64,000 nt of DNA, taken from contig CP113055.1 of the NCBI GenBank assembly GCA_026625625.1, forward strand, positions 1,614,501 through 1,678,500, given 5' to 3'. The stretch's first letter is position 1, and the number at the start of each line of letters is the position of its first letter. Source of the stretch: Blastomonas sp. SL216. Its GTDB lineage: Bacteria; Pseudomonadota; Alphaproteobacteria; Sphingomonadales; Sphingomonadaceae. The notes beneath the pieces are model-generated. The model ran no database searches. It worked only from the letters and a program-made list of their open reading frames with translations, and had not been told where the DNA came from. The position numbers were made by a program, and so were the translations under genes. Below, in pieces: positions 45,740-60,030 of this stretch.

Positions 45740-45917
45740 AGCATCACCCAGCCAGGGTCGGCCAGGTGTGAATCTGGCGGCGCACAGATGTTTGGCGTTC
45801 CAGGCTATTGCGGTTACACCCCATGGGCACCGTGCGCCGCAAAGCCGCTCCGCCCGATGCACAACGGCAGCGCTTGGTGCACAAGCCACATGGCGGGTCT
45901 GGAACAGGGGAAAATGC

Positions 45918-47216
45918 ATGAAGGCGGGAATTCTTGGCGCGTTTGTTGCGATGGCGATCGCGCTGCCTTCGGTGGCCTCGGCGCAGACATCCATCATTCA
46001 TGCCGGTCGCCTGATCGACGTGCCCGGCAAGGCACCACGCGGACCATCCACGATCGTCGTAAAGGATGGTCGGATCGCATCGGTCGATAATGGCCATGCC
46101 AAGGTGCCCGAAGGTGCCGCATTCATCGACCTCAGCGATCGGACTGTGCTACCCGGACTGATCGACAGTCACGTGCATCTGACGAGCGACTCCGCCGGGC
46201 CCGCAGGGCAGCTGGAGGCCGTCACCCTGTCGCCCGCTGCTCAGGCCTTCAACGCCCAGGCCAATGGGATGAAGACGCTGCGCGCCGGCTTTACCACGGT
46301 CCGCAATCTGGGTGATGGCGACGGCGCGGTGCTCGCGCTGCGCGATGCGGTCAATGCCGGCAAGGCGATGGGGCCGCGGATCCTGGATGCCGGCAGCAGC
46401 CTGTCTGGCACCGCGGGCCATTCCGACAATGCACTGAGCTATCGCGACGAATTGCGTCCCTTCTTTGCCGGCGCGGGCAATATCTGCAATGGGGCCGAAG
46501 ACTGCCGCCGCGCGACGCGACAGCAGATCGGGCGCGGGGCCGATGTCATCAAGGTGACCATCACCGGCGGCGTCAACAGCCGGATCGGCGCGGGGCTGGG
46601 CAGCCAGATGTTCGATGACGAGGCAGCGGCCATTGTCGCCACCGCACGGATGTTCGGCCGCAAGGTGGCGGTCCATTCGCATGGTGCCGACGGCACGCTC
46701 CAGGCCTTGAAACTCGGCGTCGATTCGATCGAACATGGCACGATGCTGACCGAGGAGGTCATCGCGCTGTGGACCAGAAGCAAGACCTATTATGTCCCGA
46801 CCCTGTCGACCGTGAACGGGTACAAGGAACGGCTTGCGGCCAACCCAGATGCCTATGAGCCCGATGTCCTCGCCAAGATCAAATGGCGCATCGACATCAC
46901 CGGCAAGACGCTGCAGACGCTCGCTCCGCGCGGCGTTCGGATCGCCTTTGGCACCGATGCAGGCGTGTCGAAACATGGCCGCAATGCCGACGAATTCGAG
47001 CTGATGGTCGCAAACGGCATGACGCCCGAAAGCGCGCTGATAGCAGCCACAGTCAACGCGGCTGACCTGCTCGGCCTTTCCGATAAGATCGGCACCATCG
47101 CTCCGGGCAAAAGCGCCGACATCATCGCTGTGGCGGGCGATCCGCTGACGGATGTGTCGGTCTACAAGGACGTCCAGTTCGTGATGGCACGCGGCAAGGT
47201 CATCGCGCTGGAGTGA
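45918..47216 (+). CDS. exported metal-dependent amidohydrolase (imidazolonepropionase-like)
   Basis: The product is 432 aa. ATG 45918 follows CAGGGGAAAA and opens a signal peptide (KAGILGAFVAMAIALPSVASAQ). Metal ligands are visible: GLIDSHVHLTSD (HxH), the Lys of GADVIKVTITGGV as bridging Lys, VAVHSHG, DSIEHGTML and the final Asp in IAFGTDAGVSKHG. The C-terminal LGLSDKIGTIAPGKSADIIAV is the amidohydrolase small-domain motif. Periplasmic enzymes of this class hydrolyse Xaa-Pro or Xaa-Arg/Lys dipeptides and cyclic amides. It follows the oligopeptidase gene by 178 bases, so a shared role in peptide breakdown is possible. Confidence 0.88.
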   Translation: MKAGILGAFVAMAIALPSVASAQTSIIHAGRLIDVPGKAPRGPSTIVVKDGRIASVDNGHAKVPEGAAFIDLSDRTVLPGLIDSHVHLTSDSAGPAGQLEAVTLSPAAQAFNAQANGMKTLRAGFTTVRNLGDGDGAVLALRDAVNAGKAMGPRILDAGSSLSGTAGHSDNALSYRDELRPFFAGAGNICNGAEDCRRATRQQIGRGADVIKVTITGGVNSRIGAGLGSQMFDDEAAAIVATARMFGRKVAVHSHGADGTLQALKLGVDSIEHGTMLTEEVIALWTRSKTYYVPTLSTVNGYKERLAANPDAYEPDVLAKIKWRIDITGKTLQTLAPRGVRIAFGTDAGVSKHGRNADEFELMVANGMTPESALIAATVNAADLLGLSDKIGTIAPGKSADIIAVAGDPLTDVSVYKDVQFVMARGKVIALE

Positions 47217-47361
47217 TGGAACAGCCCCCAGAGTTCTGACCGTCGTGCGTCTGATGTTGGGCACAGCGGCGATGAAGGGCATGCCGCGCCCCAGCGGCAA
47301 ACCGAAGCATGGAGGGGAATGGCCTTGACCACCCCCGCCCCTCACCGCGTTGCGAGCCCCG

Positions 47362-49527
47362 TCAGGCCAGATCGCGAACCTTGGGTTCCCGATCCCAGTG
47401 CCTGACCGGCCCGACCTGCATGAATTCATCCGGATGGACCACGCCTGCGTCGGGTTCGATATTGGCCTTGGGCAACAGATGCTGCCGGGTGCCTTTACAG
47501 GCCCCGATGGTCTTGCAGTGATACCAGGCATCCGCAAACCAGGCGACTGCACCGACATCCCGGGCCAGCATCTCTGCCCGTTCCGGCGCCAGCATCGCCA
47601 CAACCGCATCGAACAGGACCGAGGGTGACCCGGCCAGTTGCCCGTCAGCTTTCAGTTCGCCGCCGTCCAATGCCAGCGGGCCGATTTTCGGGGCGACCAG
47701 AAACGCCGATCCGCCCGCCTTTTCGATGTCGCTCACCAGATCGGTGATGGCGGATTTGCTCGAGCCCTGATCGAACAAGATGCCGATCTTGCGCCCCTTA
47801 AACGTGGGCTTGGCCTGTTTCTGGATCGACAGGGCATCGGAAGTGCCGAGGTCGACCGGTTCCCTCGCAGCCTTTGCCTTGGCCGGCAGATCCGTGCCCA
47901 GTCCTGCAGCCACCCGCTTGGCCAGATCCTCGTCCACGTTGCGCAGCCGCGCGATGACCCTGGGCGGGACATGCGCAATCGTCACCTTGGACAATTCGAA
48001 GACCAACGCCGATGCGATATGCGCTTGCTCATTCTCGGTCTGCGACCGGTAGAACAACCTGGCCTGGCTGTAATGGTCCGCAAAGGCCTCGGCGCGCACC
48101 CGCAGCTTCTCGGTCGGATCGTTGCGCTCCGCATTCTCCCGGAACGAGGTGAAACCCGTATCCGGGCAAGCGCGCGGTCCGCCGTCTTCTCCTGCCTCAG
48201 CCAGGCTGTTGGGCTCGTAATTGGCACGGCCTGTGGGCACGAGCGTCTGCATCAGACCATCGCGCTGGAAATTGTGAAACGGGCATTTGGGCGCGTTGAT
48301 GGGAATCTGATGGAAATTCGTCGTCCCAAGCCGCGACTTCTGCGTGTCGAGATAGCTGAACAGACGCCCCTGAAGCAGCGGGTCGTTCGAGAAATCGATG
48401 CCGGGAACGAGGTTGGTCGGCATGAATGCCACCTGCTCGGTCTCTGCGAAGAAATTATCGACATTCCTGTTCAGCGTCATCCTGCCGATGACTTCCACCG
48501 GGATTACCTCCTCGGGTATCAGCTTGGTCGCATCGAGCACGTCATAAGGTTGCTGCGCAGCCCATGCCTCGTCGAATATCTGGACCGCCAGGTCCCATTG
48601 TGGATAGTCGCCCGCGTCGATGGCCTCCCACAGGTCGCGGCGATGGAAATCGGGGTCGGCACCGGCGATCTTGACCGCCTCGTCCCAGGTCGTGCTCTGA
48701 AGCCCCAGCACCGGCTTCCAGTGGAACTTGACGAACCTGCCCTCGCCCTCGGCATTGATGAACCGGAAGGTGTGGACGCCAAAGCCCTCGATCATGCGCA
48801 ATGATCTCGGGATACCGCGATCCGACATGGCCCACATGACCATGTGCATCGCCTCGGGCATCAGACTGATGAAATCCCAGAACGTGTCATGCGCGCTTGC
48901 CGCCTGCGGATAGCCGCGATCAGCCTCCATCTTGACGCTGTGGACAAGGTCGGGAAACTTCATCGCATCCTGGATGAAGAAAACCGGAATGTTGTTGCCG
49001 ACCAGATCCCAATTGCCTTCTTCAGTATAGAGCTTCACCGCAAAGCCCCGCACATCGCGCGGTGTATCGACACTGCCGGACCCGCCTGCGACGGTGGAAA
49101 AGCGAACGAAGACCGGGCAGCTATTGCCCTTGGTCTGGAAAAGCGATGCCTTGGTCCATTCCGGGATAGCGCGCGTCACCTCGAAGGTGCCGTGCGCACC
49201 CGAACCGCGCGCATGAACGATCCGCTCGGGAATGCGCTCATGGTCGAAATGAAAGATCTTCTCCCGCAGGACAAAGTCTTCCAGCAGGGTCGGACCGCGT
49301 TCCCCCGCCCTCAGGGAATTCTGATTGTCGGAAATTCGGTGGCCGAAATTGTCGGTCAGATGCGTATCGCGGCTGGCCGACTTGCCCTTCATGTCAACGT
49401 TTTGATGGACCTCGCCGCCATTACCGGTGGTCGCGATCAATTCCGCCGAACCCGCACCCGGTTGGTGATCGGCAAGCGCGTTGTCCGTGGCGGGCGATGC
49501 GAGGCTTGGTTTCTGTCTGGCCGGCAT
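47362..49527 (-). CDS. katE: large-subunit (clade II, HPII-type) catalase
   Basis: The product is 721 aa, the size of HPII enzymes (about 700-750 aa). ATG 49527 has GGAG eight bases upstream. The heme domain holds [18 protein letters not shown] with the distal His, [43 protein letters not shown], and the proximal Tyr segment [14 protein letters not shown]. The C-terminal 150 residues form the flavodoxin/GATase-like domain of large catalases ([18 protein letters not shown], then [14 protein letters not shown]). It converts H2O2 to water and oxygen in the cytosol. A strong hairpin stands in the leader 35 bases before the start. Confidence 0.93.
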
Positions 49528-49561
49528 GTGCTGGGCTCCAATGTTAAGGGGTATACAGGCG

Positions 49562-49593
49562 GTGCGGCCATGCACTGAGTGGCATGGCCGCAC
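49562..49593. repeat. 12-bp perfect inverted repeat in the katE leader
   Basis: GTGCGGCCATGC and GCATGGCCGCAC flank an 8-base loop (49574-49581), 35 bases before the katE start on the minus strand. No T-run follows, so it may be a protein-binding site or an mRNA 5' hairpin rather than a terminator. A second, weaker palindrome GGCCGAT-TG-ATCGGTC lies at about 49618-49633. Confidence 0.6.
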
Positions 49594-49757
49594 GCCCGAT
49601 CCTGAGGGACGGTGCCTGGCCGATTGATCGGTCATGCGGATCGATGTCCGGAAAAATGGCCGGGCTTCGGAAGACCTGAGCGGCAGCCGCGAAATCGTTC
49701 CCGAACGAGATGTCGCGCGCCTGGCTCATGCGCCAGCCGACATGCCGGTTGCGCCGC

Positions 49758-49970
49758 TTAAGCGGCTCGACCATTCTTGTCGTAATGCTTCTTGATGTAA
49801 TAGCCCGCCACACCCACGGCGAGCATCGTGGGCAGGCTCATGCGGGACAGAACGAACGGAATGGCCGACGCGGCCAATGCACCCGTTGTGGCACCCTTTG
49901 CGCTGTCCGCTTTCGATGTCGGACCTGCGAGCTTGGCTCCGATGACGGCACCGATAACATTCTTGATCAT
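49758..49970 (-). CDS. small glycine/alanine-rich protein with hydrophobic C-terminal segment
   Basis: The product is 70 aa. The start codon has a strong AGGAGAAAG site. It begins MIKNVIGAVIGAKLAG, has a short hydrophilic stretch with Ser/Lys, then two hydrophobic segments (GALAASAIPFVLSRM and TMLAVGVAGYYI) and ends KKHYDKNGRAA. The two segments fit a small membrane or membrane-associated protein. I do not recognise a named family. It lies between katE and the truncated hemoglobin gene and appears to be a single gene. Confidence 0.7.
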   Translation of the reverse strand: MIKNVIGAVIGAKLAGPTSKADSAKGATTGALAASAIPFVLSRMSLPTMLAVGVAGYYIKKHYDKNGRAA

Positions 49971-50152
49971 AGGCTTTCTCCTGCGTTTCCCCAGTTACCG
50001 AGAGGATCGCAGAAGGTTCCAATCCGTGATGCGTTTGATGGCCACGCGAAAGGCCGGACACGCCTTTTCAAGATCGCCCCAGGTTCCGCGCGTCGAGTCC
50101 GTAATGCGGGGTGCTCGCACGGGGCCTTGCGCCACCGGCGCTGCGTATTCGG

Positions 50153-50698
50153 TCAGCGGGTGACCACGTCGCGCTTCATCGGAGCCAGCTTGGACAGGAA
50201 GCGGTTCTGCGCGGCAAAGCTGATCTTTTCCTTCGCCATGGCCGCCTGCAGGTTTTCGACGAGCACATTGAGGTCATCAATCTGCAGGCCGAGATCCTTG
50301 TGCGAACTGACCATGTCGCGCCCGCTGTAATCGCAACCCGCGTTGAGGATGTAGCAGAACTGTTCGAACAATGTGCGGCGCAGGCGGACCAAATCGTGCG
50401 AGACGAAGACTTCGGAAATCCGCGGGTCTGCAACGGAGAGATCGACCATGTCGTTGACGACGCGCCGGATGCCGTCCTGTCCGTGAAACGCATCGCGCAT
50501 GCCGGACCCGGCAAACGGTTTCGAGCCTGCATTGGCATTGGACATTTCATAGGGATCGACCGGCACTTCACCCGTGACGGGATCGCGCTGCGGCTCTGGC
50601 GGCATCGTGGTCGCCTCCGATGCCTCGGCCTCGGCGGCGGGCGTGTCGGGCATGTCCTGCGCTGCGGACAGGGCAAGGGCGAGAATGAGGCTGATCAT
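50153..50698 (-). CDS. exported group I-like truncated hemoglobin
   Basis: The product is 181 aa. It has a short N-terminal signal (ISLILALALSAAQ) and a Pro/Glu-rich linker to about residue 60. The truncated globin domain follows: FHGQDGIRRVVNDMVDLSVADPRISEVF (B/E helix region), LRRTLFEQFCYILNAGCDYSGRDMVSSHKDLGL with proximal His133, and IDDLNVLVENLQAAM. Group I truncated hemoglobins bind O2 or NO and can dioxygenate NO; the export signal is unusual for the family. Cys115 and Cys122 are close enough for a disulfide. It is 18 bases downstream of the DUF3034 gene in the same direction, so the two are co-transcribed. Confidence 0.82.
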   Translation of the reverse strand: MISLILALALSAAQDMPDTPAAEAEASEATTMPPEPQRDPVTGEVPVDPYEMSNANAGSKPFAGSGMRDAFHGQDGIRRVVNDMVDLSVADPRISEVFVSHDLVRLRRTLFEQFCYILNAGCDYSGRDMVSSHKDLGLQIDDLNVLVENLQAAMAKEKISFAAQNRFLSKLAPMKRDVVTR

Positions 50699-50716
50699 GA
50701 TAGGTCCTGTCCGGTA

Positions 50717-51601
50717 TCAGAATGCGGCTTGCAGCGAGAGAAAGGCGCCGCGCTGATTGTCCGCCGTGGCAATGCTGCCAAGATCGACATAGGCCGCCGT
50801 CACCGTCACATTGCGGGTTACGGCATAGGCGGCAAACAGATCGAACCAGTCATCTTCCCGCGCAATGGCCAGATTGTCCGGCTTGGTGCGATATTCGCCG
50901 CCGACGACGAAGCGGCGCGAGAACTGATAGGCGATCGACCCTTCGAACTGGGGCTTGTGATCGTTATCGGTTGCGCTGCCGAAGCCCAGCAGACCGTTCT
51001 GATTGGCCTTGGTGAAGCGCACCGTCGCATTGGCCAGGACGCTATGCGAAAGGAAGAGCTTGGTCGCGCTGATATAGAAATCGGTGCCATGGGGTGATGC
51101 CCCGCCGACTGCCGCGACCACCGCATCGTCGCTCGAGCGCTTGTGCTGCACGCCGACCGCGATCTGGGGCATGAGACTGGAGCCATAGACCGCATCTCCC
51201 GCGATCCTCAGCTTGGCTCCGAAGACATCCTGATTGAGCGTATAGCCACGCCCGAGCCCAAGCGCGGCGCCGATATCGATCGTATCGAGGTTCTGCCGCG
51301 CATAGCTCAGCTCAACGCGATCGAAGAACCCGACCGACAGACCGTAGCTCGTCCAGTTATAGTCGGGCAACTCGATGACCGTGCCATGCGCCGATCCGCC
51401 AATACCTTCCTGCGTGCCATTGCCGGCAATCGTGCTCCAGGTGGCAAGTCCGCCGCCGCCCGATCCCTCGATGGTGCTGACGCCATTGGTCAGCAGCAGC
51501 TTGCCGCCGTTGCGAATGTCCTGCGCCTGGGCTGCGGTGGCTGCACAAACGGACAGCGCGATCAGACAGGCAGTGCGGGTGAATATGTTGATGGCAATCA
51601 T
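50717..51601 (-). CDS. DUF3034 outer-membrane-like protein
   Basis: The product is 294 aa from ATG 51601 (TTG 51622 with AGGAT upstream is an alternative). A signal peptide ends CAATAAQAQ. DUF3034 features are NGGKLLLTNGVSTIEGSGGGGLATWSTIAG, YGLSVGFFDRVELSYARQ, and the alternating hydrophobic strands to the last residues LSLQAAF. A terminal Phe and repeated amphipathic strands suggest an outer-membrane beta-barrel. The family has no established function known to me. It is divergent from the cupredoxin gene and co-directional with the truncated hemoglobin gene. In other proteobacteria DUF3034 genes lie near methylamine-utilisation-like cupredoxin and GGDEF/EAL genes, as here. Confidence 0.82.
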   Translation of the reverse strand: MIAINIFTRTACLIALSVCAATAAQAQDIRNGGKLLLTNGVSTIEGSGGGGLATWSTIAGNGTQEGIGGSAHGTVIELPDYNWTSYGLSVGFFDRVELSYARQNLDTIDIGAALGLGRGYTLNQDVFGAKLRIAGDAVYGSSLMPQIAVGVQHKRSSDDAVVAAVGGASPHGTDFYISATKLFLSHSVLANATVRFTKANQNGLLGFGSATDNDHKPQFEGSIAYQFSRRFVVGGEYRTKPDNLAIAREDDWFDLFAAYAVTRNVTVTAAYVDLGSIATADNQRGAFLSLQAAF

Positions 51602-51730
51602 GCCGCTGGCCGTATCGGTCAAATCCTAACGCTCGGTTAACCAAAAGTGCCGACGAGCGAGTTGGGCACAATGGATCCAGAATTTGGTCAGGGCTCGCGC
51701 CGAACAACTTGTTTTTAACCACTTAAGGCC
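51602..51730. promoter_or_regulatory. divergent control region between DUF3034 and cupredoxin genes
   Basis: This 129-base gap is AT-richer than its surroundings. It holds a perfect 8-bp palindrome GGTTAACC (51635-51642) and a second TTAACC near 51715-51720, followed by ACTTAA. These could be paired regulator half-sites. No clear -35/-10 pair was found. Confidence 0.35.
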
Positions 51731-52387
51731 ATGATCAAGGTCATGTTTGATCTTCGCTTCCCCTGGCATCTTGCCTTTTCAGCATTGGCAGCGATGCTGC
51801 TTCTGGTCCCGGGATCTGAGGCAGCCGCCCCGGCCACACTGGCCATTACGGTCAGGCAGGCCAGTGGCATGCCCGTGAAGGACGCGGTGGTCATGGTGTA
51901 CCCCAAGTCCGGTGCTGCCCAGGGACCGATTCGCTTTGGCTGGAAAAATGAGATGGCCCAGTCGAACGTCACCTTCCTGCCAGGGACGCTCATCGTGCCT
52001 GCTGGTGCCACGGTGCGTTTCCCGAATTTCGACAAGGTCCGGCACAGCATCTACAGCTTCTCCAAGGCGGCAAAGTTCGACATCCAGCTGTATGGCCGCG
52101 ACGAGACGCGCACCCACACTTTCGCGGTCCCAGGGAGCGTGTCGCTTGGCTGCAAGATCCACGACAAGATGCGTGGCTATATCAAGGTCGTGGATACCCC
52201 CTATGCGGCCAAGACCGATCATAACGGCCAGCTGAAACTGGCGCAGCTGCCCGGCGGCCCGGCGACCATCAGAGTCTGGCATCCCGCGCTGCGCAGCCGG
52301 ACGGGCGAGCATCAGGAGGCGGTCACCCTCGCCCCCGGTCAGCCTGCGGCGCGTTCGGTCACCGTTGAACTGCGACCCAATCCATAA
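51731..52387 (+). CDS. exported amicyanin-like cupredoxin (methylamine-utilisation type)
   Basis: The product is 218 aa. It has a signal peptide (FSALAAMLLLVPGSEA) and a cupredoxin domain. The type 1 copper ligands are visible: His105 in KVRHSIYSF, and Cys141, His144 and Met147 in LGCKIHDKM. The C-x2-H-x2-M spacing is that of amicyanin. After about residue 158 a short carboxypeptidase-regulatory-like beta domain follows (DHNGQLKLAQLPGGPATIRVWHP). It should carry electrons or sense copper in the periplasm. The gene precedes the GGDEF/EAL gene by six bases, so they are one unit. ATG 51743 is an alternative start. Confidence 0.87.
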   Translation: MIKVMFDLRFPWHLAFSALAAMLLLVPGSEAAAPATLAITVRQASGMPVKDAVVMVYPKSGAAQGPIRFGWKNEMAQSNVTFLPGTLIVPAGATVRFPNFDKVRHSIYSFSKAAKFDIQLYGRDETRTHTFAVPGSVSLGCKIHDKMRGYIKVVDTPYAAKTDHNGQLKLAQLPGGPATIRVWHPALRSRTGEHQEAVTLAPGQPAARSVTVELRPNP

Positions 52388-52393
52388 GCCGCC

Positions 52394-54745
52394 ATGACAA
52401 TGCCTGACCCCTCTGCCAACGACCGCTTCCGATCGCTCTCGACCCGCATAACCTTGTGGTATGCCGTGGTGATCGCGCTGACCTTCGGTGCCTTCATCAT
52501 TGTCGCGGCAGACGGGGTGGAGCGCTATGCGCAGAACGTCGCGACCGGCGAGATGGCCGCCAACGGGGCAACCTTCGACAAGATCCTGGAGCTGGAAGCG
52601 GCGCAGATGCGCACATCAGCTGATGTGCTGGCGGCCGATTTCGGCTTTCGCGAGGCATTTGCCATCGGCGATGCGCCGACCATCGCCAGTGCGCTCGACA
52701 GCCTGCGCCAGCGCGCCGGTGCCCCGCTGGCGATCATGATCCCGCTGCAGGGCGACATCATCAGCACCGGGACCACGTTGCTGCCTGCCGACCACGATAT
52801 GCTGTGGAGCGCGGTGGACTCAGGGGTCGATCGCGGTGTTTTTCAGGTTGGCGGCCGTTTCTACAACGGGGTCGCCGCACCCATCAAGATTCCCGATCTG
52901 GCAGGCTGGCTGGTCCTCGCCCGCCCGCTGAATACTGTTGCGATGCGCGACATGGCCAGGCTTGCCCCCGAAGGCATGTCGGCCAGCATTCGGGCAGGCG
53001 GCACGCTGTCCCATGGCATCACCCTGGCGCAAGCCAGCGGCAAGGCGCCCATTGCCGTCGACATCAAGGGTGAGCCGACGCTCTATTGGTCGCGGCGGCT
53101 GCCCTCCTTTGATGCGCAAGCCAAGCCGCGCCTGCTGCTGCGCTACGCCTTGGGCCCGGCGCTGGAACAATATGCGCCGATCAAATATCTGCTGATTGCC
53201 CTGAGCGGCCTAGGCCTGCTGATATCGACCGCGATCGGTGCATTTGTCGCGCGCGGCATTACCCGACCGATCGCTGCACTGGACCGGGCTGCGCGCGCGA
53301 TCAGCGAAGGATCGCGCAACAGGGTGTCGATCAGGTCCTCCGATGAGGTTGGCAGGCTGGCCGCAAGCTTCAACATCATGGTCGATTCGATCACCGAGCG
53401 CGAGGAACGCATCACGCACATTGCGCTGCATGACGAGCTGACCGGCTTGCCGAACCGCAAGCTTTTCGCCGAGCAACTCGAATTTGCACTGGCCCGCCGC
53501 GCGAGAAACGAGCGCGTCGTGGTCATGTATTTCGACCTCGACAACTTCAAGGCGGTCAATGACACTTTGGGCCATCCGGTTGGCGATGAGCTGCTCAAGG
53601 CCGTGGCCGAGCGTCTCCGGCAGACGATCAACGGGGCCCTGATCAGCCGCCAGGGCGGAGATGAATTCGCCATCCTGCTCGACCAGATCGAACCTGGAGC
53701 CAATCTTGCCCTGCTCGCCGATCAGGTGATTGCAGTGTTCGGCGCGCCGTTCCAGCTGACCGGGCATTCGCTCGAGACCAGCTCCAGCATCGGCATTGCC
53801 GTCGCGCCGGGCGATGGCACCTGCCCCGACGACCTGATCAAGAATGCCGACCTGGCCCTGTACCGGGCCAAGAATGAGGGCCGCAATTGCTCATGCTTCT
53901 TCGAACAGGCGATGGACCTGGAGGCGCGCAAACGCCATCAGATGGAAATCGACATGCGCGAGGCCGTGCGCGGGAGACAGTTCCACCTCAATTATCAGCC
54001 ACTTTTCAGCCTCGAGAAGAACCGGATCGTCGGCTTCGAGGCGCTGATCCGCTGGCAGCACCCCAAGCACGGTTTGATCTCCCCGGCGGAATTCATCCCG
54101 CTGGCCGAGGATACCGGCATGATCGTGCCGATCAGCGAATGGGTGATGAACGAGGCCTGCGCGCGCGCCAGCCAATGGCCTGAGGATGTGCGGGTCGCGG
54201 TGAACCTCTCGCCGGTGCTGTTCAAGAATGCAGGGCTGCCGCTGATGGTGATGCAGGCGCTCGATGCGACCGGCCTCAATCCCAGCCGGCTGGAGCTGGA
54301 GGTGACCGAGTCGCTGTTCATCGACAACGTCGAGCGCACCTTGGCAATGCTCAGTTCCTTGCGCGAATGCGGCATCCGGATCGCGCTCGATGATTTCGGC
54401 ACCGGATATAGCTCGCTCAATTATCTGCGCTCGTTCCCGTTCGACAAGATCAAGATCGACAAGAGCTTCGTCAACGACCTGACGGCCGACCACAGCGCCC
54501 GTGCGATCATCGGTGCGATTACGGCGCTGGCGGGTGCGCTGGGCATGGAAACGATCGCCGAAGGCGTTGAGGACAGTGACCAGCTTGAGGCATTGCGATC
54601 GCAGGGGTGCACCAACATCCAGGGCTATTTCTTCAGCCGACCGGTGGACATCGCCCTGGTCGACGCGATGATTGCCAACATGCGCTATGAGGCTCGCGCC
54701 ACCCAGGCCATCGCCAAGGCAGAACCCTCCCGCAAGGCCGCTTGA
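52394..54745 (+). CDS. membrane-bound GGDEF-EAL protein with periplasmic sensor and HAMP
   Basis: The product is 783 aa. TM1 is near residues 17-38, a periplasmic sensor region spans about 39-255, and TM2 (YLLIALSGLGLLISTAIGAFV) leads into a HAMP domain (about 285-335). The GGDEF domain has an intact GGDEF at 421-425, but the inhibitory I-site position reads INGA instead of RxxD. The EAL domain has an intact EAL at 549-551, DDFGTGYSSL and the KIDKSFV loop. Both cyclic di-GMP synthesis and breakdown are possible. Coupled directly after the cupredoxin gene, it is likely to respond to periplasmic redox, copper or gas signals from the proteins encoded beside it. Confidence 0.92.
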   Translation: MTMPDPSANDRFRSLSTRITLWYAVVIALTFGAFIIVAADGVERYAQNVATGEMAANGATFDKILELEAAQMRTSADVLAADFGFREAFAIGDAPTIASALDSLRQRAGAPLAIMIPLQGDIISTGTTLLPADHDMLWSAVDSGVDRGVFQVGGRFYNGVAAPIKIPDLAGWLVLARPLNTVAMRDMARLAPEGMSASIRAGGTLSHGITLAQASGKAPIAVDIKGEPTLYWSRRLPSFDAQAKPRLLLRYALGPALEQYAPIKYLLIALSGLGLLISTAIGAFVARGITRPIAALDRAARAISEGSRNRVSIRSSDEVGRLAASFNIMVDSITEREERITHIALHDELTGLPNRKLFAEQLEFALARRARNERVVVMYFDLDNFKAVNDTLGHPVGDELLKAVAERLRQTINGALISRQGGDEFAILLDQIEPGANLALLADQVIAVFGAPFQLTGHSLETSSSIGIAVAPGDGTCPDDLIKNADLALYRAKNEGRNCSCFFEQAMDLEARKRHQMEIDMREAVRGRQFHLNYQPLFSLEKNRIVGFEALIRWQHPKHGLISPAEFIPLAEDTGMIVPISEWVMNEACARASQWPEDVRVAVNLSPVLFKNAGLPLMVMQALDATGLNPSRLELEVTESLFIDNVERTLAMLSSLRECGIRIALDDFGTGYSSLNYLRSFPFDKIKIDKSFVNDLTADHSARAIIGAITALAGALGMETIAEGVEDSDQLEALRSQGCTNIQGYFFSRPVDIALVDAMIANMRYEARATQAIAKAEPSRKAA

Positions 54746-54816
54746 TCGAGCGGCAGGTAGCGCCAGGCGTCTACACGCACCATCCGCGCAAACAGAGGGT
54801 CGCTCGTGCGGCCAGC

Positions 54817-55971
54817 CTATTTCAGGCGAGGCAATGCTTCTGCCAGCCGCTCCAATGCCCGCTCCAGAGTCGCGCGCTCCTTTGCGAAACAGAAGCGCAC
54901 CAGATGGGTGGGCGGAGCATCGCTATAGAATGCCGATATCGGGATTGCGGCGATGCCGGCCTGGTCGATCATCGCATGGCAGAAGGCCATGTCCTCCATC
55001 GCGATGCCGGATGCGGCCACGTCCACGCTGACGAAATAGGTGGCGGCCGAGGGCACCGTTGCCAAACCGATCTTACGCAATCCGGCGCAGAAAAAGTCGC
55101 GCGAAGCCTGATGTTGCGCGCGGGCCATCGCGATCCAGTCATCCTGGCTGTTCAGCCCTTCGGCCACCGCCCATTGCAGGTTGGGCGGGGTGGTGAAGGT
55201 CAGGAACTGGTGCGCCTTGGCGAGGACACGCGCAATCGGCGGGGCTGCGCACATCCAGCCGACCTTCCATCCGGTCAGCCCGAATATCTTGCCGGCAGAA
55301 CCGATCTTCACGGTCCGCTCGCGCATGCCCGGATAGCTCAGCAGCGATCTGTGCTGCGCCCCGTCATAGACCAGCGCCTCCCAGACCTCGTCACAGATCG
55401 CGATCAGATCATTGTCCACACAGGTTCGGGCGAGCAGCGCGAGGTCATCCGGATGTGCGGTGGTCCCCATCGGGTTCATCGGATCGTTGAGGAGCAGGAC
55501 ACGGGTCCGCGGGCTGATGGCATCGGCCAGGGCCTGGGCATCGATGCGCCAGCACGACCGATCGAAATCGACGATCCGGGCAATGCCCCCGGCACGCTGC
55601 ACCAGCGGGCAATATGCGTCGTAGAGCGGCTGGAACAGCAGCACCTCATCGCCAGGCTGGATGATCGCAAGCAGGGCAGCAGCAATGGCCTCGGTCGCAC
55701 CCGATGTCACGACGACCTCATCCGGGGCAAGTTCCAGCTGCTGATGCCGACGATACCAATCGGCGATCGCTGCCCGCAGTTCGGGCAGGCCGACCATCGG
55801 CGGATACTGGTTCGATCGATGCTGTAGCGCTGCGCATGCTGCATCGATGACCAGATCATTGCGCGGACCATCGGGAAACCCCTGCCCGAGATTGATCGCC
55901 CCGGTCTCCCGCGCGCGCATCGACATCGCCTCGAAAATCGTGGTGGGCATGTCGCGGTATATCGGGTTCAT
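54817..55971 (-). CDS. PLP-dependent class I aminotransferase (YbdL/kynurenine aminotransferase-like)
   Basis: The product is 384 aa. ATG 55971 has AGGAG seven bases upstream. Fold-type I features include the N-terminal GAINLGQGFPDGP, VTSGATEAIAAALLAIIQPGDEV, NDPMNPMGTT (the NPxNPxG-like motif with Met replacing the second Asn), the cofactor region ICDEVWEALVY, and the Schiff-base Lys228 in GSAGKIFGLTGWKVGW. The sequence resembles YbdL methionine aminotransferase and similar enzymes. It is a cytosolic transaminase; the substrate is not certain. Divergent from the SnoaL-like gene; no operon partner. Confidence 0.89.
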   Translation of the reverse strand: MNPIYRDMPTTIFEAMSMRARETGAINLGQGFPDGPRNDLVIDAACAALQHRSNQYPPMVGLPELRAAIADWYRRHQQLELAPDEVVVTSGATEAIAAALLAIIQPGDEVLLFQPLYDAYCPLVQRAGGIARIVDFDRSCWRIDAQALADAISPRTRVLLLNDPMNPMGTTAHPDDLALLARTCVDNDLIAICDEVWEALVYDGAQHRSLLSYPGMRERTVKIGSAGKIFGLTGWKVGWMCAAPPIARVLAKAHQFLTFTTPPNLQWAVAEGLNSQDDWIAMARAQHQASRDFFCAGLRKIGLATVPSAATYFVSVDVAASGIAMEDMAFCHAMIDQAGIAAIPISAFYSDAPPTHLVRFCFAKERATLERALERLAEALPRLK

Positions 55972-56135
55972 CGCGGCTCCTGAATCGATGGCACGCTGGG
56001 CGAACAGGTGCGCTGCGCAAGCCGCGTTCTATATCGGGCGGGCAGCTTGTTGCACAAATGCAATTGTCCTTGCGTGGCGCCGGCGCAGTAACAATCCGGG
56101 TTGCCACGATCGATCTGCCTCTGTAGCTGTAGTAT

Positions 56136-56681
56136 ATGAGCAATACAGTTAGCCATGGGCTGAAACGATCGATTCTGTGCGGCGTAGCGTCGCTGCTGGC
56201 CTGTCTCTCGGTGGCCGAGGCAAAGCCCGATGCCGCGACGCCTCACAATCTTGCATCGCCGGGCGATCCGCTGACGCAGGAGATAGGCGCGCTCGATGCG
56301 AGGGTGTTCGGTGCCTATAACAGCTGCGACCTGGCAACATTTTCGGCCTATTTCGACCCCAAGGTCGCCTTCTATCACGATACCGGCGGGGCGACGTTCG
56401 AGCGCGACGCGATGGTCGACGGCGTGCGCAAATATATCTGCGGCAAGGTGAAACGGGAACTGATCCCGGCAAGCTTCCGCGTCTATCCGATCAAGGACTA
56501 TGGCGCGATCGAGGAAGGGGAACATCGCTTCTGCGACCTCGCCACAGGACAGTGCGAGGGCATTGCCAAGTTTGTGATGGTCTGGGCAAAGCGCGATGGC
56601 GCCTGGAAGATCACCAGCGTCCTAAGCTACGGCCATCGTGCTGCGACGCCGCAAGAGCCGGCAGGCGCTGCCGGCAGATAG
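56136..56681 (+). CDS. exported SnoaL/NTF2-like (DUF4440-type) protein
   Basis: The product is 181 aa with an N-terminal signal (RSILCGVASLLACLSVAEA). After a linker an NTF2-like domain begins near residue 48 with EIGALDARVFGAYNSCDLATFSAYFDPKVAFYHDTGGATFERDAMVDGV, the DUF4440/SnoaL pattern. It ends with GEHRFCDLATGQCEGIAKFVMVWAKRDGAWKITSVLSYGH, the usual closing strands. Function cannot be assigned from this fold. It converges on the TraB-like gene two bases downstream. The N-terminal length fits; ATG 56136 is the only early start. Confidence 0.83.
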   Translation: MSNTVSHGLKRSILCGVASLLACLSVAEAKPDAATPHNLASPGDPLTQEIGALDARVFGAYNSCDLATFSAYFDPKVAFYHDTGGATFERDAMVDGVRKYICGKVKRELIPASFRVYPIKDYGAIEEGEHRFCDLATGQCEGIAKFVMVWAKRDGAWKITSVLSYGHRAATPQEPAGAAGR

Positions 56682-56683
56682 GC

Positions 56684-57610
56684 TCAACGCCAATCGGGTC
56701 CGGCAATGGCAAAGCCTCGCGCCTCGAGCTGATCAAGCACGCCTTGTCGCTCGGCAAGCACGCCGAGCGGCACAACGGCGAGCGTCACCCCGTTCGTGCT
56801 GGACGCCTCGGCGATCAATCGTGTCCACTGATCCCGGATTTCTCCGCCAAGGTCCTCATCCTCCCATGGCCAGCACGTGCCGAGCGCGATCTCGAGCGGA
56901 TTGGCCATAACGGCGGGAATATCAAATCTGCGCCAGTCGTCCCCGCGCGCCTGAACGACGGGTTGCCCTGCTTCGGTCGCGGCCATCGCGGCTTCCAGAC
57001 ACGCGATATGGCTCTCAGGCGCCGCCGCAGCCAGATTGTCCAGAAGATCCTCGCCGCGAAATCGCTCTGGCCGGATAATGGGTATGTCCGCCCGTTTTGC
57101 CGCCTTTTCGACGATGTCGGTTGCATCGTCCGTCGTGTCATTGTCGAAATCAAGCCGCCGCGCCAGCAGGTCGAAGGCGGACATCAGGAAACTGCCTCGA
57201 TCATAGTCGACCTTGTACCGGGCCTCCAGATCAGCCAGGCGCGCCCGCTGCGGACTGCTCAGATAATCGGCGGCCACCCGTCCATCAGGCAGCTTGGTAA
57301 AGCTTCCTCCGCGGAAGATCAGACGGAACACATCGCCGGGCGAGAATTTCGGCGCGGCGCGCAGGATGACACGGTTGGCTTCGGCCGTGGCATCGCGCAG
57401 CCGTTCCGGCTCCCAGGGAGTGCTCTTGGGAACCGCGCGGATTTCACCGACCAGCAGCACGGTTCCGCTGGGCGTGTCGATCGTCCACATAGGCGCACCT
57501 GATCGCCTGGCGCTGACCACGATCTCGCTTTCCGCCTGCGCAGCCAGCGCGTGCGCGGGCATCGCACCCAAGAGCATGGCCGCAACCGCGAACAGGGACT
57601 TTGTCTTCAT
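56684..57610 (-). CDS. TraB/GumN family exported protein
   Basis: The product is 308 aa. ATG 57610 opens a signal peptide (KSLFAVAAMLLGAMPAHALA). TraB/GumN traits are PMWTIDTPSGTVLLVGEIRAVPKSTPW near residue 40 (in place of the usual GTxH motif), the middle EANRVILRAAP, and a C-terminal LEIALGTCWPWEDEDLG segment. A region with a LAVVPLGVLAERQGVLDQLEARGF ending is typical of the family. The family resembles gelatinase-like metalloproteins of unclear role, but the canonical GxxH is not seen here (GEIRAVP instead), so any catalytic claim is doubtful. Upstream lies a 251-base gap without evident features. Confidence 0.75.
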   Translation of the reverse strand: MKTKSLFAVAAMLLGAMPAHALAAQAESEIVVSARRSGAPMWTIDTPSGTVLLVGEIRAVPKSTPWEPERLRDATAEANRVILRAAPKFSPGDVFRLIFRGGSFTKLPDGRVAADYLSSPQRARLADLEARYKVDYDRGSFLMSAFDLLARRLDFDNDTTDDATDIVEKAAKRADIPIIRPERFRGEDLLDNLAAAAPESHIACLEAAMAATEAGQPVVQARGDDWRRFDIPAVMANPLEIALGTCWPWEDEDLGGEIRDQWTRLIAEASSTNGVTLAVVPLGVLAERQGVLDQLEARGFAIAGPDWR

Positions 57611-57861
57611 GCCCACAGCCTTATCATCCCGCGAATAGATGGTGTGTGAGCTTGAAAACGTGGGGTTGGCAGCCCGGAAAGCCAAGGCCCGGAATTGGCC
57701 GACCGTCGCTATGGCCCATATTGCTGCCACGGGCCTTCCCGGAGGAGAAGCCCATTGATTGCTCGATCCGCAGCACGCTGATGGGCATGCCTGCGCAAGG
57801 GATCGATGCGGCCAGGGGGCAAGATTTACGGCGCAAAAATCCTGAAAGCTTCAGCGCGAGA

Positions 57862-58515
57862 TCATTTGCTGAGCGCGTGCAGCTTGCGACCGGTGACAGC
57901 GGTCTGGATGACGAACAGGATCATCATGCCTGCGCCGATTGCCGCGATAAACAGATCGAATGGCGAAAGGCCCGTGCCCATCACCGTGCCCGGCTGGGTG
58001 GTGAACATCGCCAGGCTCATGGCGATCAGGATCAGCCGCAATTCGGTGGGTCCGGCAGCAAGATAGGACAAGCGAAATTCGCCTGTTACGCGGGCCGCAA
58101 GGAAAGTGTGGATCGACAAGAGCAGGTAGCTGCCCAGCGCGAACATGGCGACATCCATGCGAATGAAGGCAGTCAGCCCCAGCCCGACGACAATGATGAG
58201 ATTGGACAGGGCATCCATGCTGTGATCGATGAAATAGCCGTAATTGGGCCGCTCGATCTTGCGAAAGCGTGCCAGGCTGCCATCGAGGGAATCGCCGAAC
58301 CAGTTGATGATGAATCCGGCGATCGCCAGCCACAGCCATTCGACCTGGAACAGGCTGAGCGCATAGCCTGCAAAAACGGTCAACGCGCCGCAAAAGCCCA
58401 TCAGCGTCAGTCCGTCAGGCGATACCCAAGCAGGCAGCCGCGCACACAGCCAGTTCAGCAGCCGCCGTTCAGCGCCCGCGAGCATGTTGCCCTGTATCCG
58501 ATTGACGCCGCTCAT
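57862..58515 (-). CDS. CDP-alcohol phosphatidyltransferase family protein
   Basis: The product is 217 aa from ATG 58515 (ATG 58527 is in frame). The family motif D-G-x2-A-R-x8-G-x3-D-x3-D is complete: DSLDGSLARFRKIERPNYGYFIDHSMD. Six membrane helices follow and flank it. These enzymes transfer a phosphatidyl or similar group from a CDP-alcohol in phospholipid synthesis; the accepting alcohol cannot be deduced. The ATG at 58515 overlaps the TGA of a possible 27-codon ORF by ATGA, which favours this start. The gene lies 166 bases or more from cobC and is not part of the cobalamin unit. Confidence 0.86.
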   Translation of the reverse strand: MSGVNRIQGNMLAGAERRLLNWLCARLPAWVSPDGLTLMGFCGALTVFAGYALSLFQVEWLWLAIAGFIINWFGDSLDGSLARFRKIERPNYGYFIDHSMDALSNLIIVVGLGLTAFIRMDVAMFALGSYLLLSIHTFLAARVTGEFRLSYLAAGPTELRLILIAMSLAMFTTQPGTVMGTGLSPFDLFIAAIGAGMMILFVIQTAVTGRKLHALSK

Positions 58516-58595
58516 GACCGCCACCATGCGGTACAGGCGAGAATGGCGGAGGCTATGGGCACGGTCATCAGTAAATCCTTGGCAACTCTATGCAT
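58512..58595 (-). CDS. possible 27-aa leader ORF coupled to the CDP-alcohol transferase
   Basis: ATG 58595 to TGA 58512 encodes a 27-aa peptide with one hydrophobic stretch (MTVPIASAILACTAWW) and basic ends. Its stop overlaps ATG 58515 of the next gene. A G-rich run stands immediately before the start, too close for an ideal ribosome site. A short ORF at this place could be a translated leader or chance; I saw no homologue to support it. Confidence 0.28.
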   Translation of the reverse strand: MHRVAKDLLMTVPIASAILACTAWWRS

Positions 58596-58693
58596 GTCCC
58601 CCCGCATAGGAGTGTGGGCTATAGGGCCATTAGCAAGGAAATCGAGGCCTACGTAAAAAGTCTGTAACAAATTCGTGCCGCAGACCAGGTTCT

Positions 58694-59239
58694 TCACCGC
58701 ACAACCACGACCATGGCTCCGGCAGCGGGCATCAGGCCTGGCCAGTCATGGACGGGCACAGCCTGCAGCATGCCGACAATGGCCGCGATCGGCCCGCCAT
58801 GGGTGACAACCAGCACCCGCTGCGACGGCAGCTTTCGCAAAGCCGCATTCGCCCTGGCCGCAAGTTCCATGGTGGTCTCGCCATTGCCGGGTCGAAAGCT
58901 CTCGGGAGCCTCGATCATCCCGTCCATCGCGTTGCCGGTTTCGCGATAGATCGCCGTCCAGCGCTTCCCCTCCCAGCTGCCGAAATCCCGCTCCATCCAT
59001 GCCGGATCGGCGATTGCGGCGACGCCAACGAACGTGGCGATGGCATCGGCAAGGATCTGCGCGCGGCGAAGCCCTGAATGCAGCACCAAATCGGGCTTCC
59101 ACTCGGCAAGCTCGGGCGCCAGCGTGCGCGCATGTGCAGCCCCGGCGCGGCTAAGGCCCATGTCGCTCTGCCCATAGCACCGGCCCCGCCATGCGCGTGC
59201 GACCTCGGTATGCCGGACCAGCAGGACCTGGGCGGACAT
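58694..59239 (-). CDS. cobC: histidine phosphatase, alpha-ribazole phosphatase-type
   Basis: The product is 181 aa. The catalytic LLVRHTEVA (RHxE), the CYGQSDMGLS segment and VVTHGGPIAAI with the second His are typical of CobC-type histidine phosphatases. The start ATG at 59239 overlaps the CobS stop by one base. It would dephosphorylate adenosylcobalamin 5'-phosphate or alpha-ribazole phosphate at the end of nucleotide loop assembly. Its place as the last gene of the cob operon supports the cobalamin role over a general phosphatase. Confidence 0.86.
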   Translation of the reverse strand: MSAQVLLVRHTEVARAWRGRCYGQSDMGLSRAGAAHARTLAPELAEWKPDLVLHSGLRRAQILADAIATFVGVAAIADPAWMERDFGSWEGKRWTAIYRETGNAMDGMIEAPESFRPGNGETTMELAARANAALRKLPSQRVLVVTHGGPIAAIVGMLQAVPVHDWPGLMPAAGAMVVVVR

Positions 59240-60030
59240 CACAGCGCCGCCGTCGCTGCCAGCAGCAGGATGAGCTGCCCGGCATAGGCCGCAAAGCCCA
59301 GGCAATCCCCGGTGCTCCCCCCGATACGCCGCAGCATCAGCGTGCGGAACCAGAGCAGGAATGCAGCCGCGCCCAGCGATGCCACGATCAGGGCCAGCGG
59401 AGCGTGGATCGCAAATCCCAGCAAGCCGGGCAGCGCGGTCGCCATGGCCAGCAGCAGTGTGGAAAGCCCGACACCCGAGCCGATGTCCTTGGCCAGACCG
59501 GTGCCCTGCGGAGCGGGCGACACGATGCTCATCAACAGCACGACCAGCAATCTGCCGAAGGTGGCCGAGGCAGTGATGGTCGCAAACGCCACGACCGGGT
59601 TCATGCTCTCGATCACCGCGATCATCAGCGCGGCCCGCAAGCCGACCGCCAGGATCAATCCCACGCTGCCATAGCTGCCGATGCGGCTGTCCTTCATGAT
59701 GCGCCGCACATCCTCCGCGCTCTGGCCACCGCCAAAGGCATCGCAGAAATCGGCAACGGCATCCTCGTGAAAGGCCCCCGTCAGCCTGGCTTCGACAGCC
59801 AGCGCAAGCAGCACCGCAACCAGCGAGGGCCAGAGGCTGTCCGCCGCCAGCGCTACGGACGACGTCATCGCTCCGACTGCCGCACCGACCAGCGGGAACC
59901 ATCCGACCGCACGCACCAGCCCGGCGGCGACCTGTTCCGCGGTCAGCCCGGCGGTGCCGGGAACGGGAATGCGGGTCAGGAACTGCACCGCCAGCACCGG
60001 GGGTGCCCAGAATGGGGGCCGACCGTCCAT
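59239..60030 (-). CDS. cobS: adenosylcobinamide-GDP ribazoletransferase
   Basis: The product is 263 aa with several hydrophobic helices. Motifs are AVQFLTRIPVPG at the N-terminus, LTGAFHEDAVADFCDAFGGGQSAEDVRRIMKDSRIGSYG (the CobS signature, with an acidic metal-binding core), and a C-terminal GGSTGDCLGF. It joins alpha-ribazole to adenosylcobinamide-GDP to form adenosylcobalamin, at the membrane. The start at 60030 is one base after the cobT stop codon. Confidence 0.93.
   Translation of the reverse strand: MDGRPPFWAPPVLAVQFLTRIPVPGTAGLTAEQVAAGLVRAVGWFPLVGAAVGAMTSSVALAADSLWPSLVAVLLALAVEARLTGAFHEDAVADFCDAFGGGQSAEDVRRIMKDSRIGSYGSVGLILAVGLRAALMIAVIESMNPVVAFATITASATFGRLLVVLLMSIVSPAPQGTGLAKDIGSGVGLSTLLLAMATALPGLLGFAIHAPLALIVASLGAAAFLLWFRTLMLRRIGGSTGDCLGFAAYAGQLILLLAATAAL

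Follow-up and report, generated by a model that had tools for sequence, protein, structure and literature searches.

A predicted cupredoxin–receptor pair in a conserved four-gene cluster of Blastomonas sp. SL216, and its possible role in cyclic di-GMP signalling across the cell envelope

Described systems and the Blastomonas gene cluster

In several bacteria a protein of the envelope controls a membrane enzyme of cyclic di-GMP (c-di-GMP) turnover, and a gene cluster of Blastomonas sp. SL216 may represent a further case. The cluster occupies nt 50153–54745 of a 64,000 nt stretch of contig CP113055.1 (positions 1,614,501–1,678,500, forward strand; this whole stretch is hereafter the window, and coordinates refer to it) and carries genes for a DUF3034 protein, an exported truncated haemoglobin, a predicted periplasmic cupredoxin and a membrane receptor with GGDEF and EAL domains. 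Among the described systems NspS-MbaA likewise combines a periplasmic partner with a membrane c-di-GMP receptor, and the receptor of the window is of the same type, a membrane receptor with a periplasmic input and c-di-GMP domains. The partner differs: NspS is described as a periplasmic binding protein for polyamines, whereas that in the present cluster is a cupredoxin, a metal protein. On the simplest reading the cupredoxin–receptor pair would work as NspS-MbaA does, with a copper protein replacing the binding protein; it would then belong to a known kind of system, periplasmic partner plus membrane receptor, of which the copper-protein partner would be the new part.

Other systems share single traits with the cluster. 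YfiBNR and HmsCD likewise have envelope partners that control a membrane c-di-GMP enzyme. The YfiBNR partners are not known to be cupredoxins or globins. Nor does HmsCD have a partner of either kind; its HmsC carries pairs of cysteines and reacts to the redox state of the periplasm (PMC8846402). Globin-coupled sensors likewise tie a globin haem to c-di-GMP turnover, but in those described the globin is part of the enzyme's own chain, whereas the present cluster encodes an exported truncated globin as a protein of its own. Two CHASE4 receptors of Pseudomonas aeruginosa, PA14_37690 and PA14_53310, likewise have a periplasmic input, of CHASE type, on a c-di-GMP enzyme and are reported to bind copper or haem (PMC13277305); in the part of that paper available they bind the metal or haem themselves and no cupredoxin or globin partner is named, whereas the inputs of the GGDEF-EAL receptors described here are without invariant His, Cys or Met. 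The haem-bearing Cache domain of DUF3365/Tll0287 likewise senses by a Cache-type domain with a metal cofactor and has nitric oxide (NO) sensor properties, but its c-type haem is held inside the domain via CXXCH (PMC12889525), and in the present cluster the cofactors would sit in separate partner proteins.

On annotated plasmids RefSeq has the same four genes side by side under separate names that imply no joint system: DUF3034 family protein, group 1 truncated hemoglobin, EAL domain-containing protein and, for the cupredoxin, methylamine utilization protein or carboxypeptidase regulatory-like domain-containing protein. Among the open-access papers listed by text searches, none describes the four-gene combination in its title or in the opening of its abstract. 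In the accessible passages truncated hemoglobin and EAL domain are treated apart in PMC3770913, and in a census of c-di-GMP sensing (PMC8846402) 'copper' occurs 0 times in the main text and 'cupredoxin' 0 times by the count of a text search. The string DUF3034 appears, in the excerpts available, for a probable actinobacterial membrane protein and in a retron legend (DUF3037 elsewhere); neither bears on the cluster.

The genes form two divergent pairs, DUF3034–globin on the minus strand and cupredoxin–receptor on the plus strand, around one short control region. This is the layout given in the original prediction, and all four members are present, three by Pfam and the cupredoxin by its ligands, profile and fold. 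The sequences also fit the predicted topology, in which all but the c-di-GMP output domains are periplasmic or in the outer membrane. The features are as follows.

nt 50153–50698, minus strand: globin gene, 18 nt behind DUF3034 (Pfam Bac_globin and residue counts)
nt 50717–51601, minus strand: DUF3034 gene (Pfam E 2.2e-97), read from the ATG at 51601; TTG at 51622 is a possible alternative start that would lengthen the protein
nt 51602–51730, no strand: divergent control region between the DUF3034 and cupredoxin genes
nt 51731–52387, plus strand: gene of the cupredoxin protein, 6 nt ahead of the receptor gene
nt 52394–54745, plus strand: inner-membrane receptor, dCache_3-HAMP-GGDEF-EAL, 783 residues (Pfam)
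nt 52574–52963, plus strand: dCache_3 periplasmic input of the receptor, residues 61–190, with DFGFR at residues 82–86 (Pfam)
nt 53423–53887, plus strand: GGDEF domain of the receptor, residues 344–498, motif GGDEF intact in the window copy (Pfam)
nt 53954–54643, plus strand: EAL domain of the receptor, residues 521–750, motifs intact in the window copy (Pfam)

Conservation of the four-gene unit

The main sample comprised 398 Pseudomonadota genomes; the profile searches of these scored part of the first-look candidates, so that absences can be misses. DUF3034 was found in 39 of them, the window's own genome included. A strong globin match (E 1e-38 or better) is present in all 39, compared to 2 of the other 359 (G154 and G328), and a strong cupredoxin match (E 1e-30 or better) in 38, the exception being G078, compared to 15 of the other 359. 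The neighbourhoods of 38 DUF3034 genes were then counted, one for each genome except the window's own (G000); within 7 kb of these lie a globin in 38 cases, a cupredoxin in 32, a receptor in 30 and all three in 29. In five DUF3034 genomes the cupredoxin is located off-site, next to a GGDEF-EAL receptor in four of them and next to an outer-membrane-like gene in the fifth. A second, broken DUF3034 copy in G078 (L069), excluded from the count, consists of fragments, one with an internal stop, and adjoins a globin match that also has an internal stop.

A named set of contigs shows all three partners beside DUF3034 in 41 of 47 loci; the set was gathered by means of patterns drawn from the protein encoded in the window, favours close relatives and contains near-copies. 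Exceptions in this set are L106 and L111 (globin only), L112 without a receptor (short contig), L113 without a globin, L114 without a cupredoxin (contig end), and L116 with none of the three. The nearest named loci from this contig search are those of Sphingomonas and Blastomonas, with 92 to 84% identity in DUF3034.

The gene order varies. Sphingomonads carry divergent pairs, many genomes of another class have cupredoxin–receptor–DUF3034–globin in one direction, and a Caballeronia (betaproteobacterial) plasmid has DUF3034–globin–cupredoxin–receptor. Co-occurrence together with differing gene order is a trace of selection on a joint function, and the four genes are a conserved unit, far beyond chance. 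Taken by themselves, the sphingomonad loci could be inherited synteny, and a chance or lineage-bound neighbourhood without common function found no other support; since the same genes are adjacent in differing orders, in distant lineages and on plasmids, and the cupredoxin is re-paired elsewhere with other outputs and barrels, such a neighbourhood is improbable in the extreme and was rejected on the co-occurrence counts and the tally of 84 loci described below. The original prediction had asked for a neighbourhood survey, with a lack of co-occurrence in other genomes to count against it, and the co-occurrence is very strong.

The cupredoxin–receptor pair and its exchanged neighbours

The tally comprised 84 cupredoxin loci in 75 genomes: 59 places in the Pseudomonadota sample at E <= 1e-30, and 25 further loci, being those of 32 places in a sample of the class of G207 that had not already been counted. 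In the sample of the class of G207, too, only part of the first-look candidates was scored, and absences can be misses. Weaker cupredoxin matches were left out. A receptor call required a score of at least 40 bits with a home-made profile, within 2 kb, and the label GGDEF-EAL comes from home-made EAL profiles in the tally and from Pfam in the window. A Cache-type receptor was found within 2 kb at 70 of the 84 loci, with GGDEF-EAL as output in 54, a Ser/Thr kinase in 7, a class III cyclase in 6 and a histidine kinase in 3. Pfam finds no Cache domain in the receptors of L156 and L176, and only sub-cut-off ones in those of L160, L170, L172 and L173; the receptor of L162 is split over frames, and the contig of L142 ends too near the cupredoxin for any receptor to be visible.

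An exported outer-membrane-like gene lies within 5.5 kb at 64 of the 84 loci and belongs to one of three families: DUF3034 (40 loci), a family of 400–447 residues (17) and one of 290–313 residues (7). These families are unrelated by hhalign (probability under 10). Both a receptor and an outer-membrane-like gene are present at 55 loci. The globin accompanies 39 of the 40 DUF3034 loci and none of the 44 others.

Receptor-bearing loci are alike in arrangement, the cupredoxin being first and on the same strand in 63 of 69 besides the window, and in the window likewise. The inputs of 19 GGDEF-EAL receptors and of 5 cyclase receptors match over 323 columns, nearly end to end (hhalign, probability 100, E 1e-62). 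On the receptor tree (rows thinned at 60% identity) the output changes at least 4 times, the minimum possible for four states being 3; on the cupredoxin tree, counted without the loci lacking a receptor or an outer-membrane gene, there are at least 7 changes of output and at least 9 of outer-membrane family. Since outputs and outer-membrane families are both exchanged, the constant part is the cupredoxin together with the receptor input. The cupredoxin looks to be the hub, and the cupredoxin–receptor pair the wider core, with the globin tied to DUF3034. The four-gene grouping first proposed therefore recurs as a unit, but is one branch of something broader.

Receptors next to a cupredoxin were also compared to 20 dCache_3 receptors picked by hand among the matches listed, none of which has a cupredoxin nearby. 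The motif DF[GAS][FLIYV][RK]xA is present in 33 of 58 paired receptor rows versus 0 of 20 unpaired ones, and on a tree (thinned at 50%) the two groups part in one change.

A number of observations weigh against a dedicated partnership of cupredoxin and receptor or against a four-part module. The branch that parts paired from unpaired receptors has support 0, and the motif is found in none of the 8 kinase and histidine-kinase rows. A dCache_3 match occurs in at least 153 of the 398 Pseudomonadota genomes, so that this domain is common without the cupredoxin. Conversely, a nearby receptor is missing at 14 of the 84 cupredoxin loci, and at 5 a barrel-like gene is missing as well; the 14 include L055, L060 and L037, which have DUF3034, globin and cupredoxin only. 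The cupredoxin may therefore serve another purpose. The swaps on the receptor tree are near the possible minimum, and in these quick trees the starred branches force fewer swaps than the minimum counts. The five cyclase inputs share one invariant Met. The globin is missing outside the DUF3034 branch, and DUF3034 itself was found with the globin as sole partner at L106 and L111 and without any of the three partners at L116.

Three further arrangements were noted. L113 and L159, probably on the same contig, have DUF3034, a cupredoxin and a dCache Ser/Thr-kinase receptor, with no globin found; L159 is the only DUF3034 locus among the 84 without one. In G225 a 4HB-HAMP chemoreceptor (L119:3953–5710) adjoins the cupredoxin, divergent from the cupredoxin–receptor pair, and L121 has a weak receptor-profile hit in the same position.

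The periplasmic cupredoxin

Pfam does not name the domain of the cupredoxin gene; the best that it gives is a sub-cut-off match to CarboxypepD_reg, which covers the C-terminal part, followed by two weaker matches. NCBIfam yields one match far under its cut-off for this protein and no family for the globin or DUF3034. The identity rests on three observations. In an alignment of 28 rows the ligands H105, C141, H144 and M147 never vary, and an H, C, H, M set is present at 84 of 84 loci (82 by pattern, two by eye). The family profile matches solved cupredoxins. Finally, the structural model (predicted local distance difference test, pLDDT, 92) has a best fold match at Z 12.9 (1.8 Å, 83 residues), residues ~68–155 fitting solved cupredoxins. 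The protein is thus predicted to be a type 1 copper cupredoxin, copper binding being a prediction from these residues and the periplasmic location being read from the N-terminus. 'Methylamine utilization', a database name only, was rejected as its function, as it is without support here.

In common with Nitrosopumilus purple cupredoxin, NirK-linked cupredoxins, plastocyanin and amicyanin the protein has the cupredoxin fold (Z ~11–13 over 80–92 residues). It differs from them in that it adjoins signalling receptors, has the ligand loop C-x2-H-x2-M, and looks to be inserted, within residues 30–218, in a CarboxypepD_reg-like domain. The last point is suggested by carboxypeptidase-type, SusC N-terminal and other domains, which match ~30–218 of the protein yet align only 78–92 residues.

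The top fold matches, tied at Z 12–13, are a Nitrosopumilus multicopper oxidase domain, the Nitrosopumilus purple cupredoxin, a Bacillus cupredoxin and Thermus NirK. They fit an explanation in which electron transfer or NO chemistry comes first, globin and cupredoxin forming a small periplasmic redox chain, for NO removal or for the transfer of electrons, and the receptor only adjusting lifestyle. For the Nitrosopumilus purple cupredoxin an oxidation of NO to nitrite has been reported (PMC6790972, citing Hosseinzadeh 2016), and in the Pseudomonadota sample 38 of 38 DUF3034 loci have the globin nearby. No globin is nearby, however, at 34 of the 70 receptor-bearing cupredoxin loci, and a redox chain as the primary function is considered improbable.

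The exported truncated globin

The globin of the window matches Pfam Bac_globin (PF01152) with E 3.3e-5 and 24.5 bits (cut-off 21), and its family profile matches HbN structures with E 5.5e-25 to 5.6e-24. F98, C115, C122 and H133 are kept in every row of a 33-row alignment, and among 54 thinned rows the proximal His F8 (His133) and Phe CD1 (Phe98) are each found in 54. By its sequence it is an exported group I-type truncated haemoglobin, export being read from the N-terminus; a lipobox pattern is present in 21 of the 54 rows (L066 among them doubtful), and outside the alphaproteobacteria the only named row with one is that of a Pseudomonas sp. metagenome-assembled genome (L114).

With HbN this globin has in common the profile match, the proximal His and the CD1 Phe; export, the lipobox pattern, the two invariant cysteines and the distal pocket set it apart. 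In HbN the pair Tyr B10 / Gln E11 has a distal role in NO dioxygenase activity. Tyr is found at B10 in none of the 54 rows (one is masked there), the residue being V, L, I, M, A or F in 51, N once and T once, and Gln is found at E11 in none of 54, all having L, F or I. In the window B10, E7 and E11 are all apolar. The B10 and E11 positions were placed through the profile alignment to HbN; in two of the HbN alignments, whose rows both rank above that of 1idr, E11 is Val and B10 is Phe or Tyr, these structures presumably being distal-pocket mutants. An HbN-like NO dioxygenase was rejected because the Tyr B10 / Gln E11 pair is missing, and with this pocket neither NO dioxygenation nor O2 storage of the HbN kind is likely. 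By comparison with work on HbN, a pocket of this make-up would be expected to bind O2 weakly and to suit NO or carbon monoxide, and Cys115 and Cys122, both invariant, may act as a redox switch.

This type of globin also occurs without DUF3034 in two genomes (L137, L138), where no partner was recognised. In the window's own genome, ~85 kb past the window, a 65-codon frame (L147:6077–6271) resembles the C-terminal part of the globin.

DUF3034 and the other outer-membrane-like families

The DUF3034 protein of the window scores 326 bits with PF11231 (cut-off 25). Its model, from a 31-row alignment, is a 12-strand beta-barrel with a mean pLDDT of 75, and the protein ends in Phe; an outer-membrane beta-barrel or pore is predicted. 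The best fold matches are FapF (Z 19.4, 3.0 Å, 221 residues), KdgM (Z 18.3) and the COG4313 channel (Z 18.2), which indicate a common barrel, not a common function. For the two other families all Pfam porin or barrel matches are under the cut-off and the C-terminal residue is aromatic in 15 of the 20 proteins listed, from which we infer that they are barrels too. On a Comamonas aquatica plasmid (L215:4973–8927) a DUF4394 protein, a cupredoxin ('methylamine utilization protein') and an EAL protein stand in a row, so that another protein may replace the barrel.

The presence of a barrel-like gene of the three families at 64 of 84 cupredoxin loci would also be expected if cupredoxin and globin were assembly or quality-control factors of the barrel and the receptor reported envelope stress. 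This would leave the invariant copper ligands and the haem-binding residues unexplained, and is very improbable.

The membrane receptor and its output

All nine counted EAL residues are present in 43 of 46 thinned receptor rows, window included; the exceptions are L113 (the Ser/Thr-kinase receptor), L095 (Novosphingobium subterraneum DSM 12447, cut by the contig end) and L043 (a single E replaced by D). Of these 46 rows only 24 retain a GGDEF-like motif; the window copy has both motifs. As the EAL residues are kept and GGDEF is often lost, a phosphodiesterase is likelier than a cyclase, and the receptor output is likely to be a c-di-GMP phosphodiesterase. Of the two c-di-GMP output domains named in the original prediction, EAL is the conserved one.

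On the input side the window receptor matches dCache_3, and CHASE4 is not listed for it at E up to 1; six relatives have CHASE4 matches, two of them over the cut-off (L169, L171). Against solved structures the receptor profile matched mainly HAMP domains, so that the dCache fold is not confirmed by structure. No His, Cys or Met is invariant in the 19 GGDEF-EAL receptor inputs, which rules out direct metal binding by these receptors via invariant residues.

This last result bears on an alternative of copper handling, in which the barrel moves copper, the cupredoxin carries it, the receptor senses it directly or via the carrier, and biofilm follows copper supply. The copper ligands of the cupredoxin are invariant, in vitro copper binding is reported for the CHASE4 domain of a GGDEF-EAL receptor from P. 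aeruginosa (PMC13277305), and PcoB is among the DUF3034 fold matches, though at Z 12.8, well below the best of 19.4. Set against these are the lack of an invariant metal ligand in the GGDEF-EAL inputs and the fact that barrel fold matches say nothing of substrates, and copper handling appears rather unlikely, if the strongest of the competing explanations.

Control region and flanking sequence

The control region contains a CtrA-site-like sequence, CTAA-N7-TTAAC, at nt 51626–51641 (plus strand), seen in an alignment of the window with four relatives. CTAA-N7-TTAA is kept in 5 of the 5 aligned control regions and the final C in 3 of 5. The full pattern has 1 match in the window versus 0.01 expected, the pattern having been written after the site was seen. 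The sequence resembles the CtrA consensus and is a candidate site. Scans found 3 promoters (1.3 expected) and 0 terminators (3.5 expected), and a tRNA scan of nt 44000–60000 found none. Adjoining the cluster, nt 47362–49635 (minus strand) hold a 757-residue frame that is large-subunit catalase-like by eye.

Proposed mechanism and significance

An invariant metal site is present in the cupredoxin and absent from the GGDEF-EAL receptor, the cupredoxin gene mostly comes first, on the same strand, and the outputs are swapped while the input is retained; the simplest reading of these three facts is a partner-and-receptor pair. The cluster may be an envelope-spanning sensor, in which the cupredoxin passes its copper state or redox state, with a haem input, to the receptor. 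The cupredoxin would be a dedicated periplasmic partner of the dCache receptor, and its docking on the receptor's periplasmic domain would depend on its copper state: whether copper is bound, and whether as Cu(I) or as Cu(II). The receptor would relay this through HAMP to its output domain. In this branch that domain would be EAL, acting as a c-di-GMP phosphodiesterase, and GGDEF would be regulatory or contribute a second activity. The DUF3034 barrel would be the outer-membrane end of the module, and the exported globin tied to it would feed in a haem ligand, a redox input or electrons. NO is a guess for this input, favoured because the distal pocket of the globin is apolar, because its invariant cysteines could be a redox switch, and because NO oxidation has been reported for a purple cupredoxin with a similar fold. 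We infer the contact, the signal and the direction of its effect from gene arrangement and conserved residues, and give the envelope sensor as a whole an even chance of being correct.

A more general proposal, which we hold tentatively and with more doubt than confidence, is that of a class in which the cupredoxin is a ligand-like receptor partner that links swappable outer-membrane barrels to swappable outputs (c-di-GMP, cyclic nucleotide, Ser/Thr kinase, histidine kinase), with the globin adding an NO or haem-redox input in the DUF3034 branch. In such a class the cupredoxin would not be an electron carrier for an enzyme.

The recurring set, and the copper protein beside other sensors, suggest an unrecognised form of copper, redox or NO sensing across the envelope. 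If this is true, a common gene set would gain a function, DUF3034 being present in 39 of the 398 sampled Pseudomonadota genomes, and a metalloprotein partner would be added to the inputs of c-di-GMP signalling. The cluster would offer a ready test of the periplasmic copper, redox or NO reading and, with outputs and barrels swapped round one small copper protein, the input may be tested in several systems.

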